Below are positions 10,388 to 25,373 of a stretch of 35,645 nucleotides of DNA, one piece after another; position 1 is the stretch's first letter, and each line of letters opens with the position of its first letter. A program made the position numbers and the translations under genes. Below the pieces are notes generated by a model. The model ran no database searches, was not told the DNA's origin, and saw only the letters and a list, made by a program, of their open reading frames with translations. Source of the DNA: Citreicoccus inhibens (lineage in GTDB: Bacteria; Myxococcota; Myxococcia; Myxococcales; Myxococcaceae); contig NZ_JAHNZT010000053.1 of assembly GCF_019039035.1 (NCBI RefSeq), positions 1 to 35,645 on the forward strand, in the 5' to 3' direction.

Positions 10388-10960
10388 TCAGGGAACGACG
10401 ATGGTGTCCCCCGGCCGCAGCACCACGTCCTGCCCCCCGTCCGGGGACAGCAGGTCGCTGTAGCGCACCGGAATCTGCCCGCCCTTGCCGTCGGTGCGGA
10501 TGACCGTGATGCCATCCGAGTTCGCGAAGTCAGTGAAGCCCCCCGCCAGCGCGATGGCCTGCAAGAGTGACACGCGACCCCGCAGCGGATACGCCCCCGG
10601 GTGCGTCACCTCCCCGGTGACGAAGACGCGGCTGCTGTTGACCTCACGGACGATGACCGTCACGCGCGGCTCCTGGACGTAGGGCTTCAGGCCATCCTTG
10701 AGGGCCTCGGCCAGCTCCGTGGGCGTCTTCCCCGCCGCGACGACCTCGCCCACCATGGGCATGGAGATGTAGCCATCCGGCCGCACGGGCACCGTGCGCG
10801 ACAGCTCCGGGTCCCGCCATACCGCCACGTCCAGCACGTCCTCGCGGCCAATGCGGAACGGCTGATCCGAGTTGTCCACCTTCAGCCCGCGGTCATGCGC
10901 GCACCCTGACAGGAGGAGCACCCCGACCATCACCCAGAACCCCGCGCTCTTCTTGCCCAT
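10388..10960 (-). CDS. exoA: ExoA (FdgA): Wza-type polysaccharide export lipoprotein
   Basis: 190 residues. It is a lipoprotein with lipobox LSGC (Cys20) after a hydrophobic signal (FWVMVGVLLL). A polysaccharide-export (Poly_export) domain follows (FRIGREDVLDVAVWRDPELSRTVPVRPDGYISMPMVGEV), and then an SLBB domain (VFVTGEVTHPGAYPLRGRVSLLQAIALAGGF). It should form the periplasm-spanning export channel of the Wzx/Wzy-type spore coat pathway; no flippase or polymerase gene is present in this window. In M. xanthus the gene was found as fdgA, a FruA-dependent developmental gene. The ATG at 10960 has GAGGGAGAG upstream. The frame is open to 11095, but that extension runs through the sigma-54 promoter described below. 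Confidence 0.95.
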   Translation of the reverse strand: MGKKSAGFWVMVGVLLLSGCAHDRGLKVDNSDQPFRIGREDVLDVAVWRDPELSRTVPVRPDGYISMPMVGEVVAAGKTPTELAEALKDGLKPYVQEPRVTVIVREVNSSRVFVTGEVTHPGAYPLRGRVSLLQAIALAGGFTDFANSDGITVIRTDGKGGQIPVRYSDLLSPDGGQDVVLRPGDTIVVP

Positions 10961-11053
10961 CGTCCGCTCTCCCTCTTGCGTCCCCAGCCGTCGCGCGCGC
11001 GCCGCACCTCCGGGGCCACCCCCGCCGGGCGCCACGCTTCCGGCGGCTGGCCT

Positions 11054-11070
11054 TAGCAGCGCGTGTGCCA
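11054..11070 (-). promoter_or_regulatory. Sigma-54 (-24/-12) promoter of the exo operon
   Basis: On the minus strand the sequence reads TGGCACACGCGCTGCTA. Against the sigma-54 consensus TGGCACR-N4-TTGCW it has a full TGGCAC -24 box, exact GG-N10-GC spacing, and CTGCT in place of TTGCW. Transcription would begin near 11044, leaving a leader of about 84 nt before exoA. As I recall, exo in M. xanthus is a target of the sigma-54 activator Nla6, which agrees. Confidence 0.7.
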
Positions 11071-11134
11071 CCTCGCGTCGAAAGGGAAAGGCCATGGATC
11101 GCCATGGGTTACGGTGTGCCTCTCCAGGCGACGT

Positions 11135-11173
11135 CCACGGCGTCGGGAAAAAATTTCCGACCTGCGACGCCGT
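11135..11173. promoter_or_regulatory. Nested palindrome, candidate enhancer site for exo
   Basis: Perfect 9-bp arms ACGGCGTCG (11137-11145) and CGACGCCGT (11165-11173) flank a 19-nt core containing GGGAAAAAATTTCC, a rare A/T-rich island. An inner inverted repeat, GTCGG / CCGAC with AAA / TTT (11142-11161), is nested inside. CCACGGCGTC at 11135-11144 fits the published Nla6 half-site as I remember it, C(C/A)ACGNNGNC. The centre is about 110 bp upstream of the predicted start, a usual place for an activator of sigma-54 promoters. Confidence 0.55.
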
Positions 11174-11238
11174 CCTTCACCCACCGCGTTCATCCGCGCC
11201 GCACCCCTGTCACGGCACCGCAGTTCCCACGCCATTCC

Positions 11239-11272
11239 CCTCGCGTTCCCACTTCCGGGGGGAAACGCGAGG
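11239..11272. promoter_or_regulatory. 12-bp inverted repeat upstream of the small membrane-protein gene
   Basis: Arms CCTCGCGTTCCC and GGGAAACGCGAGG (one bulged A) are separated by 9 nt. The element begins about 108 bp and ends 75 bp before the divergent small gene, and lies about 200 bp upstream of the exo transcription start. It is in intergenic DNA with no gene ending nearby, so an operator is more likely than a terminator. Confidence 0.45.
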
Positions 11273-11346
11273 CACGCGCCTTGAAACACCCCGCAACGAA
11301 CGCAAGGGGGCAAGGGCTCTCGGACACCGAGCGGAGGAGGCCGGGG

Positions 11347-17731: not shown

Positions 17732-19984
17732 TCAGATGCGCAGGCCGAGCTGCGCGCCCGGCCACAGCACGACCTTCCGCGTGCCTGCGTCGCTCGCCAG
17801 GCGACTGATGTGCCCGACCGTCTGGCCGCTCGTGGAGTGAAGGACGTTGAACGTAGGGCCGCCGATGAGCGCCAGATGCGGGGTGATCTGCCAACCGCCC
17901 ATCAGCCGCGCCTGGTGCAAGAGGCGGTTGGAGTCCCACCCCTCTTCCAGACCGAAGACGTTGTGGGAGATCACATCCACGTCCGCGAACAGACGCTCGG
18001 ACAGCGACAGGTGCGCGCCGAGCCCCAGACCGATGGTCCAGTGCCGCTTCTGGCCCGGCATGTCTCCCATGCCGGCGACGAGCGTCGAGTAGAAGGTCCG
18101 GCTGCCCGCCTTGAGGGCCACGTTGCCGGGGTTGATGTCGCTGCCGAACACCTCCACATGGAACTGCCCGTTGCGCGCGATGCTCAGCAGCCCCAGCGGC
18201 ACGCCCTCCATGTCGTTGGCCACGTTCACGACGCCGAGCTGCAGCCCTCGCATCTTCCCGGCGATGTTGATGAGGCCGAGCTGCGCGCCTGACACGTCCG
18301 TGCCCACATTGACGATGGACAGCTGCATGCCCTCGGCGGTGTCCGCCCAGCTCAGCCCCGCGGCCCCCTGGATGCCCTTCATCCGGCCGCGCACCATGTT
18401 GATGCCCGCGGAGAGCTGCACACCGGAGAGGTCTCCCTCGGCCCAGTTGGCCGCCGCGCCGAGCTGCGCGCCCCGCAGCTCCGCGCCGGAGAGGTTGACG
18501 CCCGAGGAGAGCTGGTACACCGACCCGCCCTTGCCCGCCAGGTTCACGCCCGAGGCGGCCTGGACACCGTCCACCCGGCCGCGCACCCAGTTGGCGCCCA
18601 CGCCCAGCAGCACACCCGAGGCATCCCCCTCCGAGTAGTTGCCGCCCACGCCCATCATCACTCCGCGCATCGACTCCGTGGTCCAGTTGCCGCCCAGCGC
18701 CATCGCCACGCCATCCACCCGGGCCATGCGCGCCACGCCCAGCGAGAGCGACAGCGCGTTGTCCCGCTCGCCTCCGCCCAGCAGGTCGTTCGTCTGGACC
18801 CCAGGGGCCACGCCCAGGTTGAGGAACGTCTGCCGATGCGGCGCGTCCGGCGGCGCAGCCTCCCCCGCGCCCTGAGCGACAGCCCCTCCCACCGAGCCCG
18901 TGGCAACGGGCCCGCCCACCGCGGGGCCGCCGCGCAGGGCCGTCAGCTCACCCGTGACGGCGTGGAAGTCCGCCTCCGCCAGCGCCGCGCGCGCGCCCTC
19001 CCGAACGACGATGGCCGCCTCGGAGCCCTCGCCCCGGCGCTCGCGCGTGATGACGTAGCGCCCCGGCTGGAGGCCGAGCTCGGTGGAGCGCCCCGCCAGC
19101 TTGTTCAGCTCCACCACGAGCCGGCCGGGCTCGTCGCGCACGAACATGCGCCCCTCGAGCCCATCGGCCAGCACGAGCGCGGCGGACGTGGCGCGCAGGT
19201 CCGTCATCACCAGGTCGCCCGTGCCCGCCAGTTCGATGTCATAGGCCGGGTGCTGCGCGCCCGCGCGCGTCTTCTCCGTGCGCGCGAGCGTCTCGTGGAA
19301 GGCGAACTGATAGGCCTCGTGCAGCGTCACCCGGCCGTCGCCGGTGGAGTCCGCCGCGCCGCGCAGGCCCGACACCAGGTTGTGGGTGAAGAACGAGCCG
19401 CCGATGCGATCCGACTCCTGCGACACCTCGTCCTCGGAGGAAGACGTGAGGATGGCGTGCCCCCGCACGGCCGACGACGCGTCCACGAGGAACGCGGGAC
19501 GCAGCACGCCCCCCTTCTGCCGCGCCAGGGTGCCGGAGGCGCAGGAGTCGAGGATGGCGATGCGCACGTCGGCCGGCAGCGACTCCAGCGCCTTGCGCAG
19601 CTCCGAGTAGCCGAAGCGATCATTCTTCAGCAGCAGCCCCTCCTCGTCCGAGTGGCCCGAGTAGTAGATGAGCGCCTCGGTCCGCCCCGCGCCCCGGGCC
19701 CCCTTCACCCGGTCGGAGAAGCGCTTCAGCGCCTCCACCAGCCCCGCGCGGTCGCTGTCCACCAGGAGGATGCGATCCGCGGGCTGCACGCCGCCCAACT
19801 CCACCAGCACATCCCCGAAGGCGCGCGCGTCCGACGCCGCATACCGAAGCGGCAGGCGGTTCGTGCCGCCATCGTTGACGCCCACCAACAGCGCGAAGCG
19901 ACGCACCGTCACGCCCGAGGGCTCATTGGGGGCCGCCGAGGCGAGCCAGGGAAGCAACAGGAAGGTCCAGGGGAGCCAGCGCAT
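17732..19984 (-). CDS. Secreted caspase-like (peptidase C14) protein with C-terminal surface repeats
   Basis: 750 residues. A signal peptide (FLLLPWLASAAP) leads into a caspase/metacaspase p20 domain (about 28-270) with catalytic His in IYYSGHSDEEG (about residue 111) and Cys in IAILDSCASGTL (about 148). Next come a beta-rich segment (280-350) and an Ala/Gly linker. From about 400 to 640 there are many short repeats of the form GVQLSAGINMVRGRMKGIQ or GAQLGLINIAGKMRGLQLG, which resemble the LA_2272-type surface repeat. A C-terminal region looks like a barrel. The catalytic dyad is intact, so cleavage after basic residues is expected, but the target is unknown. The ATG at 19984 overlaps the upstream TGA (TGATG); a GTG 3 nt earlier is the alternative. 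Confidence 0.87.
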   Translation of the reverse strand: MRWLPWTFLLLPWLASAAPNEPSGVTVRRFALLVGVNDGGTNRLPLRYAASDARAFGDVLVELGGVQPADRILLVDSDRAGLVEALKRFSDRVKGARGAGRTEALIYYSGHSDEEGLLLKNDRFGYSELRKALESLPADVRIAILDSCASGTLARQKGGVLRPAFLVDASSAVRGHAILTSSSEDEVSQESDRIGGSFFTHNLVSGLRGAADSTGDGRVTLHEAYQFAFHETLARTEKTRAGAQHPAYDIELAGTGDLVMTDLRATSAALVLADGLEGRMFVRDEPGRLVVELNKLAGRSTELGLQPGRYVITRERRGEGSEAAIVVREGARAALAEADFHAVTGELTALRGGPAVGGPVATGSVGGAVAQGAGEAAPPDAPHRQTFLNLGVAPGVQTNDLLGGGERDNALSLSLGVARMARVDGVAMALGGNWTTESMRGVMMGVGGNYSEGDASGVLLGVGANWVRGRVDGVQAASGVNLAGKGGSVYQLSSGVNLSGAELRGAQLGAAANWAEGDLSGVQLSAGINMVRGRMKGIQGAAGLSWADTAEGMQLSIVNVGTDVSGAQLGLINIAGKMRGLQLGVVNVANDMEGVPLGLLSIARNGQFHVEVFGSDINPGNVALKAGSRTFYSTLVAGMGDMPGQKRHWTIGLGLGAHLSLSERLFADVDVISHNVFGLEEGWDSNRLLHQARLMGGWQITPHLALIGGPTFNVLHSTSGQTVGHISRLASDAGTRKVVLWPGAQLGLRI

Positions 19985-20787
19985 CACGGCACCTTTTCCA
20001 ATGTGAAAGACGTCTGGGCCAGCGATTCTGGCAGAGGGAGGCGCAATTCACGCGCGGTCTGCGGCTGTCGCGCCACCCGGCGTGCCGCCTCTAGCACGGC
20101 CGCGACGTCGACCGGCGAATCACTCGTCACGAAGATGAAGCGCTCGAACGAGGGGGCGTCATCCAGCTCATACGCGTGCGGCAGGGACACGGCCTCTCCC
20201 GCCTTGAGCGCGGTCGAGCCCGTGAGGCGCTCCGGGAAGTGCAGCGTCACCGCGCCGCGTCCGTCCAGGGAGACCACGGCGCCATGGCGGCGGCCCCCGG
20301 ACAGGTAGCTGAGTTGCAACAGGTCGCCCCGGTGCGCCTGGGAGTGGTTGGGCAGCGACTCGGGCTCGCGCGCGCCCTGGCGGTGGACGAGCAGCCGGGC
20401 CGCGCCCTTGATGCGCACCGTCTCCCACTCCAGGGGGGAGACTCCCAGGGTGCGCGTCTCGGGAGTCAGGTCGCGCGAGGCGCTCAGCACCAGGAGAATC
20501 AGGCAGGCCGCCACGGGAAAGCCCAGGGTGAGCGAGCCGAACCAGGGATGGGCCACCGTCGCGTGCTCGGCGGCGAGGGCCTGGAGCCGGCGACGGCGCT
20601 CCACCTCGGCGGCCACCTGCGCGGGGGCGAAGCGCTCCAGGGTGCGGCGGGAGTCCTCTTCCAGTCGGGCCAATCGGGCGGGGCCATCGGATTCGGCCAG
20701 CAGGCGGGTGCGCGCAGCGACGTGAGAGGCGGGCAGCTCGTTCAGGGCGATGCGCTCCAGTAACCAGTCCGGCGTGTGGGCGACCAT
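19984..20787 (-). CDS. Single-pass membrane protein paired with the caspase (ActD-like)
   Basis: 267 residues. The N-terminus is helical and charged (WLLERIALNELPASHVAARTRLL ... RRTLERFAPAQVAAEVERRR), in the manner of anti-sigma factors. One transmembrane helix follows (FPVAACLILLVLSA, about 88-103), then a beta-rich outer domain with SHFPERLTG-like and FIFVTSDSPVDV segments. From memory, proteins of this build beside caspases are named ActD-like in myxobacterial annotations; I cannot check this. No sigma factor gene is adjacent. The stop and the caspase start share one base (TGATG), so the two proteins should be made in equal amounts. It may hold or sense the exported caspase. Confidence 0.78.
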   Translation of the reverse strand: MVAHTPDWLLERIALNELPASHVAARTRLLAESDGPARLARLEEDSRRTLERFAPAQVAAEVERRRRLQALAAEHATVAHPWFGSLTLGFPVAACLILLVLSASRDLTPETRTLGVSPLEWETVRIKGAARLLVHRQGAREPESLPNHSQAHRGDLLQLSYLSGGRRHGAVVSLDGRGAVTLHFPERLTGSTALKAGEAVSLPHAYELDDAPSFERFIFVTSDSPVDVAAVLEAARRVARQPQTARELRLPLPESLAQTSFTLEKVP

Positions 20788-22354: not shown

Positions 22355-23971
<1,617 letters not shown>

Positions 23972-24016
23972 CCCCTCGCCTCCGCTCGCCCTCTGCATCG
24001 AACCCTCCCGCCTTCC

Positions 24017-24970
24017 TCACACGGACAGCCGGGTCGGTGCCCCGGCGGCCCGCCGAATCTCGCGCGTGCGGCGCAGCGTCTGGAGGGCCGCGCTCAGCAA
24101 CTGCACGGGCGTGCCCACCGCGTCTGGGAAGCTCACCGCCCCCAACCCCAGCGCCGTCTGCACCACGCGCCCCTCCACCTGGAAGCGCGCCGCGTCGAAT
24201 CGAGCCCCCACCCGGGCCACCACGTCCTGCACCGCTTCAGCGGGCGTCCCCGGCAGCAGCACGGCGAACTCGCAGTCGCCCACGCGCGCCACCGCGTCCG
24301 CCTCCCGCACCGTCTGCCCCAACACCACCGCGCAGTACACCAACAGCCGCTCCGCCATCCCCCGCCCGTACTCCTTGCGGAACGACGCCCAGCCATCCAC
24401 CCGCGCCGCCAGCACGCTGAAGCTGCCGCCGTAGCGCTCCGCGCGCCGCGTCTCCAAGCCAATCAACGCGAGCACGAACGGTCGGTTGTAGAGCCCCGTC
24501 ACCGCGTCATGCAGCGCCAGCGCGGTGCTCGACTCCTCACCCACCGCCGCGCGCTCCACCGCGTGCTTCAAGCGCAGCTGCGCATGCAGCTTCATGGGCA
24601 GCTCGTCCCCACTCCCCGAGCGCGGCGCCACGTCCACGCACTGCCCTTTCTGCAGGCAGTGCCGCCACGCCTCAGGGTCGTGCGGATCCACCAGGTACAT
24701 CAACGGCACCGTGCCTCGGCTGATCTGCCGCAGCCGCCTCGCCACCTGCACCGCCGCGAAGTCCGGCGCCTGCGCGGCCAACAGCGCGGCGTCCGGCCGC
24801 ACCACCTCGAACAGCGGCGCCGCCGCGTCGAAACGCGTCACTGGAACCACGCGGAACCCCGCCTCCCCCAGCAGGGTCCGGGTCCGCTCCAGGGCGTCAG
24901 CCCGGGGCTCGACCAGCAGCACCGTGGGAGGCTGTCCCGCCCGTCCCACGCGCTTGTGTCTCACACCCAC
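24017..24970 (-). CDS. actA: ActA: degenerate receiver plus degenerate GGDEF protein
   Basis: 317 residues. Residues 15-130 have the receiver fold (TVLLVEPRADALERTRTLLGEAGF), but the phosphorylated aspartate is replaced by alanine (PDAALLAAQAPD, Ala65). Residues 150-300 have the diguanylate cyclase fold, beginning DAVTGLYNRPFVLALI. The active-site loop reads VGDCEF (231-235 GDCEF) where GGDEF is expected, so cyclase activity is unlikely. M. xanthus ActA is a receiver-GGDEF protein needed for normal C-signal levels. This version looks like a signalling scaffold or ligand sensor rather than an enzyme. The GTG at 24970 follows GGGGAGGG. It leads the act operon, 46 nt before actB. Confidence 0.82.
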   Translation of the reverse strand: MGVRHKRVGRAGQPPTVLLVEPRADALERTRTLLGEAGFRVVPVTRFDAAAPLFEVVRPDAALLAAQAPDFAAVQVARRLRQISRGTVPLMYLVDPHDPEAWRHCLQKGQCVDVAPRSGSGDELPMKLHAQLRLKHAVERAAVGEESSTALALHDAVTGLYNRPFVLALIGLETRRAERYGGSFSVLAARVDGWASFRKEYGRGMAERLLVYCAVVLGQTVREADAVARVGDCEFAVLLPGTPAEAVQDVVARVGARFDAARFQVEGRVVQTALGLGAVSFPDAVGTPVQLLSAALQTLRRTREIRRAAGAPTRLSV

Positions 24971-25094: not shown

Positions 25095-25373
25095 CTACCC
25101 ATCCCGGGCGAGCGTTTTAGCAACGGGTGTGCCACCCAGTGCCTCACGCACCCGGGCTTCCAACGCCACGGCATCCACGTGGAGCGTGAAGGCAGGCACC
25201 CCGTCGATGACCACCACGGGGATTTCGTAACGCCAGCGGGTCAACAGCTCAGGGTCCTCCAGGATGCTGAGGATCCGCAGCTCGAAGGGGATGCGAGCGC
25301 GCACCTCCTCGACCACGACCCTCGCCTTCTCGCAGAGGGAGCAATTGGGTTTCGAGTAGATATCGACTCTCAT
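25095..25373 (-). CDS. Glutaredoxin/thioredoxin-fold protein (DUF836-like)
   Basis: 92 residues. It begins MRVDIYSKPNCSLCEKARVVVEEV, with a CxxC redox pair (Cys11, Cys14) in the glutaredoxin position. The cis-proline loop is YEIPVVVIDG, and the length fits the small glutaredoxin-like family. Probably a cytoplasmic thiol-disulfide protein. It lies 124 nt before actA on the same strand and could be the first gene of that transcript. Its ATG is only 21 bp from the divergent DUF4388 start, and there is no clear ribosome binding site. Confidence 0.85.
   Translation of the reverse strand: MRVDIYSKPNCSLCEKARVVVEEVRARIPFELRILSILEDPELLTRWRYEIPVVVIDGVPAFTLHVDAVALEARVREALGGTPVAKTLARDG

Follow-up and report, generated by a model that had tools for sequence, protein, structure and literature searches.

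The window, that is, the 35,645-nucleotide stretch of DNA analysed here, carries in front of exoA what looks, from its sequence and conservation, like a well-conserved sigma-54 (RpoN) promoter of a known kind. The best reading of the whole upstream region is an older promoter of the RpoN/Nla6 type, onto which control by the FruA lineage appears to have been grafted later. We give a probability of roughly 0.6 to the scheme in which the promoter is activated by Nla6, receives FruA input at a conserved block (block b) and uses ActB as an auxiliary at most. The conservation and spacing of the elements and the distribution of the regulator genes were observed directly in the relatives compared.

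In the mechanism that we infer, the RpoN polymerase would transcribe the exoA–I operon from the site at 11070–11055 (minus strand), starting near 11044. An activator of the NtrC type, with Nla6 as the likeliest candidate, would bind GGAA..TTCC dyads about 107 bp upstream, with a second activator dyad about 173 bp upstream in many relatives, and the dyad-bound activator would loop to the polymerase at −24/−12 and open the promoter. In FruA-bearing lineages, FruA input would enter at block b, which lies at a fixed distance between the dyad and the core promoter, and ActB may assist or sustain exo expression without being essential to the existence of the promoter. The exo operon serves spore-coat deposition, and starvation control through enhancer-binding proteins would meet contact signalling through FruA at this point, and the separation of old from FruA-associated elements offers a guide to the first targets for mutation. 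Coordinates of all features are collected in Table 1.

Table 1 Features of the exo promoter region and of the act operon in the window
Feature	Position	Strand	Basis or remark
exoA (fdgA) coding sequence, 190 aa, ATG at 10960	10388..10960	-	Poly_export and SLBB domains
Predicted transcription start	11044	-	Inferred from sigma-54 geometry (C of −12 plus 12 nt)
Sigma-54 core promoter TGGCACACGCGCTGCT (−24/−12), facing exoA	11055..11070	-	Sequence and conservation
Block b CGTAACCCATGGCGATCCATGGCCTTTCCC (about −69 to −40), candidate operator of the FruA lineage	11084..11113	-	Conservation
Outer palindrome arm, left (ACGGCGTCG)	11137..11145	.	Overlaps CCACGGCGTC at 11135-11144 (+)
A/T-centred dyad core TCGGAAATTTTTTCCCGA, candidate enhancer	11143..11160	-	GGAR-N3..6-TTCC pattern
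Outer palindrome arm, right (CGACGCCGT)	11165..11173	.	Substitution in sister species L045
Second dyad further upstream (GGGAACTGCGGTGCC), window copy degenerate	11214..11228	-	GGGVAA-N3..7-TTCC
Divergent sigma-54-like element AGGCACGCGCCTTGAA, TTGA for TTGC at −12	11270..11285	+	Conservation
Gene of divergent small hydrophobic protein, 64 aa	11347..11541	+	Open reading frame
actB, NtrC-type response regulator	22355..23998	-	Response_reg, Sigma54_activat, HTH_8
actA	24017..24970	-	GGDEF domain; taken to be actA from its position beside actB
act operon sigma-54 site TGGCACACCCGTTGCT	25119..25134	-	Sequence match

Core promoter and start codon of exoA

The sequence-only reading of this DNA had described a sigma-54 promoter with GG-N10-GC spacing facing exoA, and such a site is present: on the minus strand (11070–11055), GG at 11069–11068 and GC at 11057–11056 are separated by ten bases. 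The site has the form TGGCAC-N5-CTGCT and agrees with TGGCACNNNNNTTGCW in 10 of 11 letters, the mismatch being a C in place of the first T of TTGC. Sigma-54 sites with at most one mismatch number three in the 35.6-kb window against 1.07 expected, and because 6 of 100 shuffles also give three sites or more, chance could account for the exoA site taken by itself. Across the window's own genome, there are 11 exact copies of the sigma-54 consensus and none of its reversed control.

The comparison drew on ExoA relatives at 35 loci of named genomes (L009–L043, of which L009–L033 are myxobacterial, one of them titled Comamonas), and ExoA was also sought in 96 genomes of the window's family, 70 of which gave a match at E <= 1e-50. 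From the 104 upstream sequences, 25 were dropped as identical to another over the last 250 bases, and the ten ExoA homologs from outside the family (L034–L043) were excluded from the promoter counts, resulting in 69 distinct promoters including that of the window; the later addition of G080 brought the set to 70. Because the species share ancestry, counts of regulator distribution in this set are not independent trials. The record titled Comamonas (L027; BNCN01000010.1) holds a Myxococcus-like exo locus, which is identical to G066 (L084) over the last 250 bases 5' of exoA, and its title is probably a mislabelling or reflects contamination.

The motif TGGCAC-N5-[CG]TGCT was found 5' of exoA in all 70 distinct promoters (69/69 including the window, plus G080). 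Its hexamers are invariant while the five bases of the spacer are variable, every exoA promoter compared has C or G in place of the first T of the textbook TTGC, and the distance from the motif to the inferred exoA start codon ranges from 28 to 110 bp over 69 promoters. On the level of sequence comparison, it is this conservation, not the count of matches in the window, that settles the site as a real promoter.

The transcription start proposed earlier near 11044 agrees with the position predicted from sigma-54 geometry. The same reading had discarded a longer exoA frame (235 aa, ATG at 11095), and we likewise rejected it because its ATG precedes the predicted transcription start; moreover, this frame is unconserved, with a stop-to-stop frame of just 203 aa in three relatives. 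An ATG at the position matching 10960 is present in 67 of the 69 rows. In the window, this ATG is preceded by a ribosome-binding-like GAGGGAGAG at 10967–10975, and ExoA shows a lipobox-like LSGC, both read by eye.

Nla6 and ActB as candidate activators

Nla6 was located in the genome G062 by means of the Nla28 half-site pair CTGCGTGG-N9-ACGCGGAG, as printed in the accessible part of its source (PMC9765219). This pair occurs once in the 400 kb examined, just 5' of a kinase/activator pair. The sigma-54 site printed for nla6 in the same accessible part has no exact match at this G062 locus, and a Protein Data Bank search for the Nla6S kinase returned six weak matches, none of them so named. The C-terminus of the Nla6 thus located was found in 70/70 genomes with exoA, including two (G081 and G082) with neither a detected ActB nor a close FruA, and among the 26 genomes lacking exoA it was found only in G051, with a partial match in G083. 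This distribution favours Nla6 as the putative exo activator, and because Nla6, ActB, FruA and exoA all share a clade, their co-distribution amounts to few independent events.

The half-site motif C[C/A]ACGNNGNC of Nla6, which CCACGGCGTC would fit, could be matched in 13 of 69 promoters over the 330 bp scanned, at no common position. The earlier proposal that CCACGGCGTC is an Nla6 half-site is not supported as it was put, this sequence being present in 2/69 promoters. Giglio et al. reportedly described in 2015 the target promoters of Nla6 and its regulation of sporulation genes, and exo is presumably among the Nla6 targets in M. xanthus. During glycerol sporulation of M. xanthus, according to the portion of the study available, fdgA/exoA, nla6 and rpoN fall into class I (peak at 0.5–1 h), and nla6 is among the genes whose mutation leads to a significant glycerol sporulation defect (PMC2875238).

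The 20 nla6 leaders compared also contain conserved elements, which are not clearly the exo dyad. A block consisting of CGGCAAGAATTACCG, CCCAGGGTTGACG, about 17 nt and TAAATC was seen by eye 5' of nla6S in 19/20 leaders, L188 being the exception (G062 C1, about 4918174–4918360, minus strand, and L174–L192), and its layout is like that of a sigma-70 promoter preceded by a dyad. For nla6, however, the promoter given in the accessible part of the source is a sigma-54 site that lies inside a gene, further upstream than this block (PMC9765219).

The sequence-only reading had also raised the question of whether ActB acts at exo, and in its strongest form this would have ActB, an old neighbour activating the adjacent operon, act at the exo promoter directly as its enhancer-binding protein. 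We regard this as unlikely, even though the two loci are closely associated. In the window, some 11.4 kb separate the start codon of exoA from the actB gene, which is upstream of and co-directional with exo in all 59 genomes that have both on one contig, at distances of 2.7 to 68 kb (<=25 kb in 50 of the 59); in nine genomes they are on separate contigs. The linkage seems older than FruA because it is kept in G044, G043, G048 and G001, all without close FruA, with distances of only 2.7 kb in G048 and 5.8 kb in G044. The C-terminal part of ActB was found in 69/96 genomes, comprising 68 of the 70 with exoA plus G051, whereas the two exoA-bearing exceptions, G081 and G082, retain the exoA sigma-54 promoter with ActB undetected. 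In the glycerol sporulation study, so far as its text was available, both act mutants are said to form no glycerol spores (data not shown there), but actB belongs to class II (2–4 h), peaking later than fdgA, though actA is in class I like fdgA (PMC2875238). The act operon site has the form TGGCACA-N4-TTGCT, the same as that printed for M. xanthus actB in the accessible part of the source (PMC9765219), and inspection by eye of the 265 bp preceding it showed no conspicuous dyad like that of exo, which also speaks against a direct role of ActB at exo. The suggested action of ActB is favoured by gene order and weakened by the two genomes that keep the promoter with no detectable ActB.

In these two genomes (L151 and L152), an ActA-like protein (39–42% identity) adjoins exoA. 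In the window, the aromatic amino acid genes are separated from the act operon by a stretch that encodes a caspase-like (Peptidase_C14) protein (17732–19987, minus strand).

Upstream dyads and block b

For the Nla6-activated promoter that we prefer, the candidate enhancer is the A/T-centred dyad core. The pattern GGAR-N3..6-TTCC was found in 52 of 70 promoters, against a mean of 0.7 and a maximum of 4 in letter shuffles; the shuffles used for dyads and elements preserve letters, not neighbours. The core has the form CCGGAA-A/T-TTCCCGG or near it, and it is positioned at −85 to −89 from TGGCAC in 51 of these 52 promoters and at −72 in one. It is also present in three of the six genomes without close FruA, a number reached by 0/5000 shuffles. 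The strict pattern is missing in 18/70 promoters, and the spacer differs by 1–2 bp between lineages.

This core is the part that remains of the enhancer-like palindrome proposed earlier. The outer arms, in the window perfect over 9 bp, separated by 19 nt and enclosing GGGAAAAAATTTCC (plus strand), were found together with CCACGGCGTC only in the window and, with a substitution in one arm, in its sister species (2/69 promoters), and as a conserved enhancer they were rejected. The sequence-only reading had itself named loss of the palindrome in close relatives as evidence against its proposal, and outside these two promoters the arms and CCACGGCGTC are absent. As judged from the alignments, the conserved part of the palindrome is the inner A/T-rich GGAA...TTCC core, which appears to be old. 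The earlier figure of about 95 bp further upstream is loose, the core (11144–11159) beginning 74 bp upstream of −24 and having its centre some 107 bp 5' of the predicted start.

The A/T run of the core, lying in GC-rich DNA, keeps its position while its length and letters vary, as might be expected if it were an intrinsic bend or a nucleoid-protein site easing the looping of DNA, not a specific activator site. This seems rather improbable, since most rows retain the flanking GGAA and TTCC as well as the A/T run, and we keep to an activator-binding dyad as the preferred reading. A second dyad, GGGVAA-N3..7-TTCC, was found in 37/67 promoters, mostly near −155 (shuffles: mean 0.11, maximum 3), and the window copy falls outside this strict pattern. 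Both this dyad and the divergent element described below were counted in 67 of the 70 rows, the other three each having too short upstream DNA. In the window's own genome, a relaxed form of the dyad gave 25 matches versus 33 for the reversed control, and among these 25 only the exo dyad has an all-A/T centre.

Between the dyad and the core promoter lies block b, which, like the divergent sigma-54-like element, was missed by the sequence-only reading. Across promoters, it follows the pattern CGTAACCCA....GATCC..GG..TTTCCC over 30 bp, and CG[T/C]AACCC (with at most one substitution) is found at −43/−42 from TGGCAC in 63 of 69 promoters. No second copy of block b occurs in the window's own genome at up to three mismatches, and because a comparable dyad was likewise absent there, block b and the dyad gain no support from a regulon.

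We take a 229-aa atypical receiver/LuxR-type protein of the window's own genome to be FruA, an assignment made by its features. Matches to it with at least 79% identity were found in 64 genomes, all of which have exoA, and in six exoA-bearing genomes (G001, G043, G044, G048, G081 and G082) the best match is at most 46% identical. Block b is present in 63/64 promoters from FruA-bearing genomes and in 0/6 from those without close FruA, a difference that represents few independent events. The FruA-bearing exception is G080, in which block b was not recognisable, contrary to a prediction written beforehand; because this prediction failed, the link between FruA and block b is suggestive only. The ExoA tree groups G080 with Archangium relatives, which carry block b (support 83/93), and with its long branches and open forks it does not settle the number of gains or losses of the block. 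In M. xanthus, binding of FruA has been reported 5' of the exo promoter, and MrpC2 showed no binding at exo from −100 to +1, as stated in the part of the report available (PMC4320627). Presumably, on these distributions and positions, block b is the site through which FruA modulates the exo promoter. A 2024 study reportedly found a negative effect of FruA on exo in early development, and a protein placed between the enhancer and the core could hinder looping, which would fit such an action. A natural comparison for these roles is provided by the six relatives that have exoA and its sigma-54 promoter but lack close FruA, ActB being undetected as well in two of the six.

Related promoters and the divergent element

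The main parts of the promoter are already known from M. xanthus; the present comparison adds the divergent element, sets the old parts apart from those bound to a lineage and ranks the candidate activators. The exo operon of M. xanthus (fdgA, MXAN_3225–3233) has the identical 16-mer TGGCACACGCGCTGCT in strain AM003 (L014), together with its own versions of block b and the core dyad at the same distances as in the window, whereas the genus of the window adds the outer arms and CCACGGCGTC and has an A/T core longer by one base. Nla6 target promoters resemble that of exo in combining an RpoN promoter with upstream dyads and differ in that the Nla6 half-site is unconserved at exo. The NmpR sites of M. 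xanthus, GCGCA-N5-TGCGC, are likewise paired dyads upstream of −24/−12, as far as the accessible text shows (PMC11841059), whereas the exo dyads have other letters and are accompanied by the extra conserved block between the dyad and the core promoter. In the accessible parts of the literature searched on Nla6 or FruA and on exo or the spore coat, mostly without subscription papers, we found among the matches listed no description of a sigma-54 site at the exo promoter (sources including PMC2875238, PMC4320627, PMC9765219, PMC4048283, PMC9548883, PMC7910581, PMC11841059 and PMC8561891).

The divergent element, HGGCAY-N6-TGN, was found in 65/67 promoters. Its last base is A in 50, G in 10 and T in 5 and never C, so that the −12 position reads TGA, TGG or TGT in all 65 and TGC, with the GC of sigma-54 promoters, in none. 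By this pattern, it looks like a sigma-54 promoter in which the C of −12 has been replaced; for characterized sigma-54 promoters of M. xanthus, single changes in GC or GG are reported in the part of the source available (PMC7910581). An open reading frame for the small protein is present in 62/69 rows under a loose rule, and when 12 rows, of 14 tried, were translated and compared by eye, the C-terminus read AK(Q/E)A in 11; the 64-aa protein of the window has no Pfam family above cut-off. Being small and hydrophobic, it is a possible partner of spore-coat export. From the gene numbering, we guess that its gene corresponds to MXAN_3224, which is unmentioned in the literature searched, where MXAN_3225 appears in four papers.

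A role of the palindrome as repressor operator or as a factor site of the divergent gene, not as an enhancer of exoA, is very doubtful: it does lie between two divergent genes, the divergent element is likewise conserved, and its dyad symmetry would suit many repressors, but its core keeps a near-constant distance from the exoA core promoter, whereas the distance of the divergent element from the exoA sigma-54 site spreads over 147 to 220 bp. Returning to the preferred reading of an Nla6-activated promoter with FruA input, we can offer a fuller form of the grafting only tentatively, with the odds against it in all its details. A promoter of the RpoN/Nla6 type predating FruA would have gained a FruA operator between the enhancer and the core in FruA-bearing Myxococcaceae, so that C-signalling would gate looping and hence spore-coat synthesis, and the same region would also drive, in the opposite direction, the conserved small membrane protein from a sigma-54-like promoter whose −12 is unusual. 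Just before the divergent element, a 12-nt inverted repeat (92%), CCTCGCGTTCCC and GGAAACGCGAGG with 10 nt between them, is located at 11239–11272.
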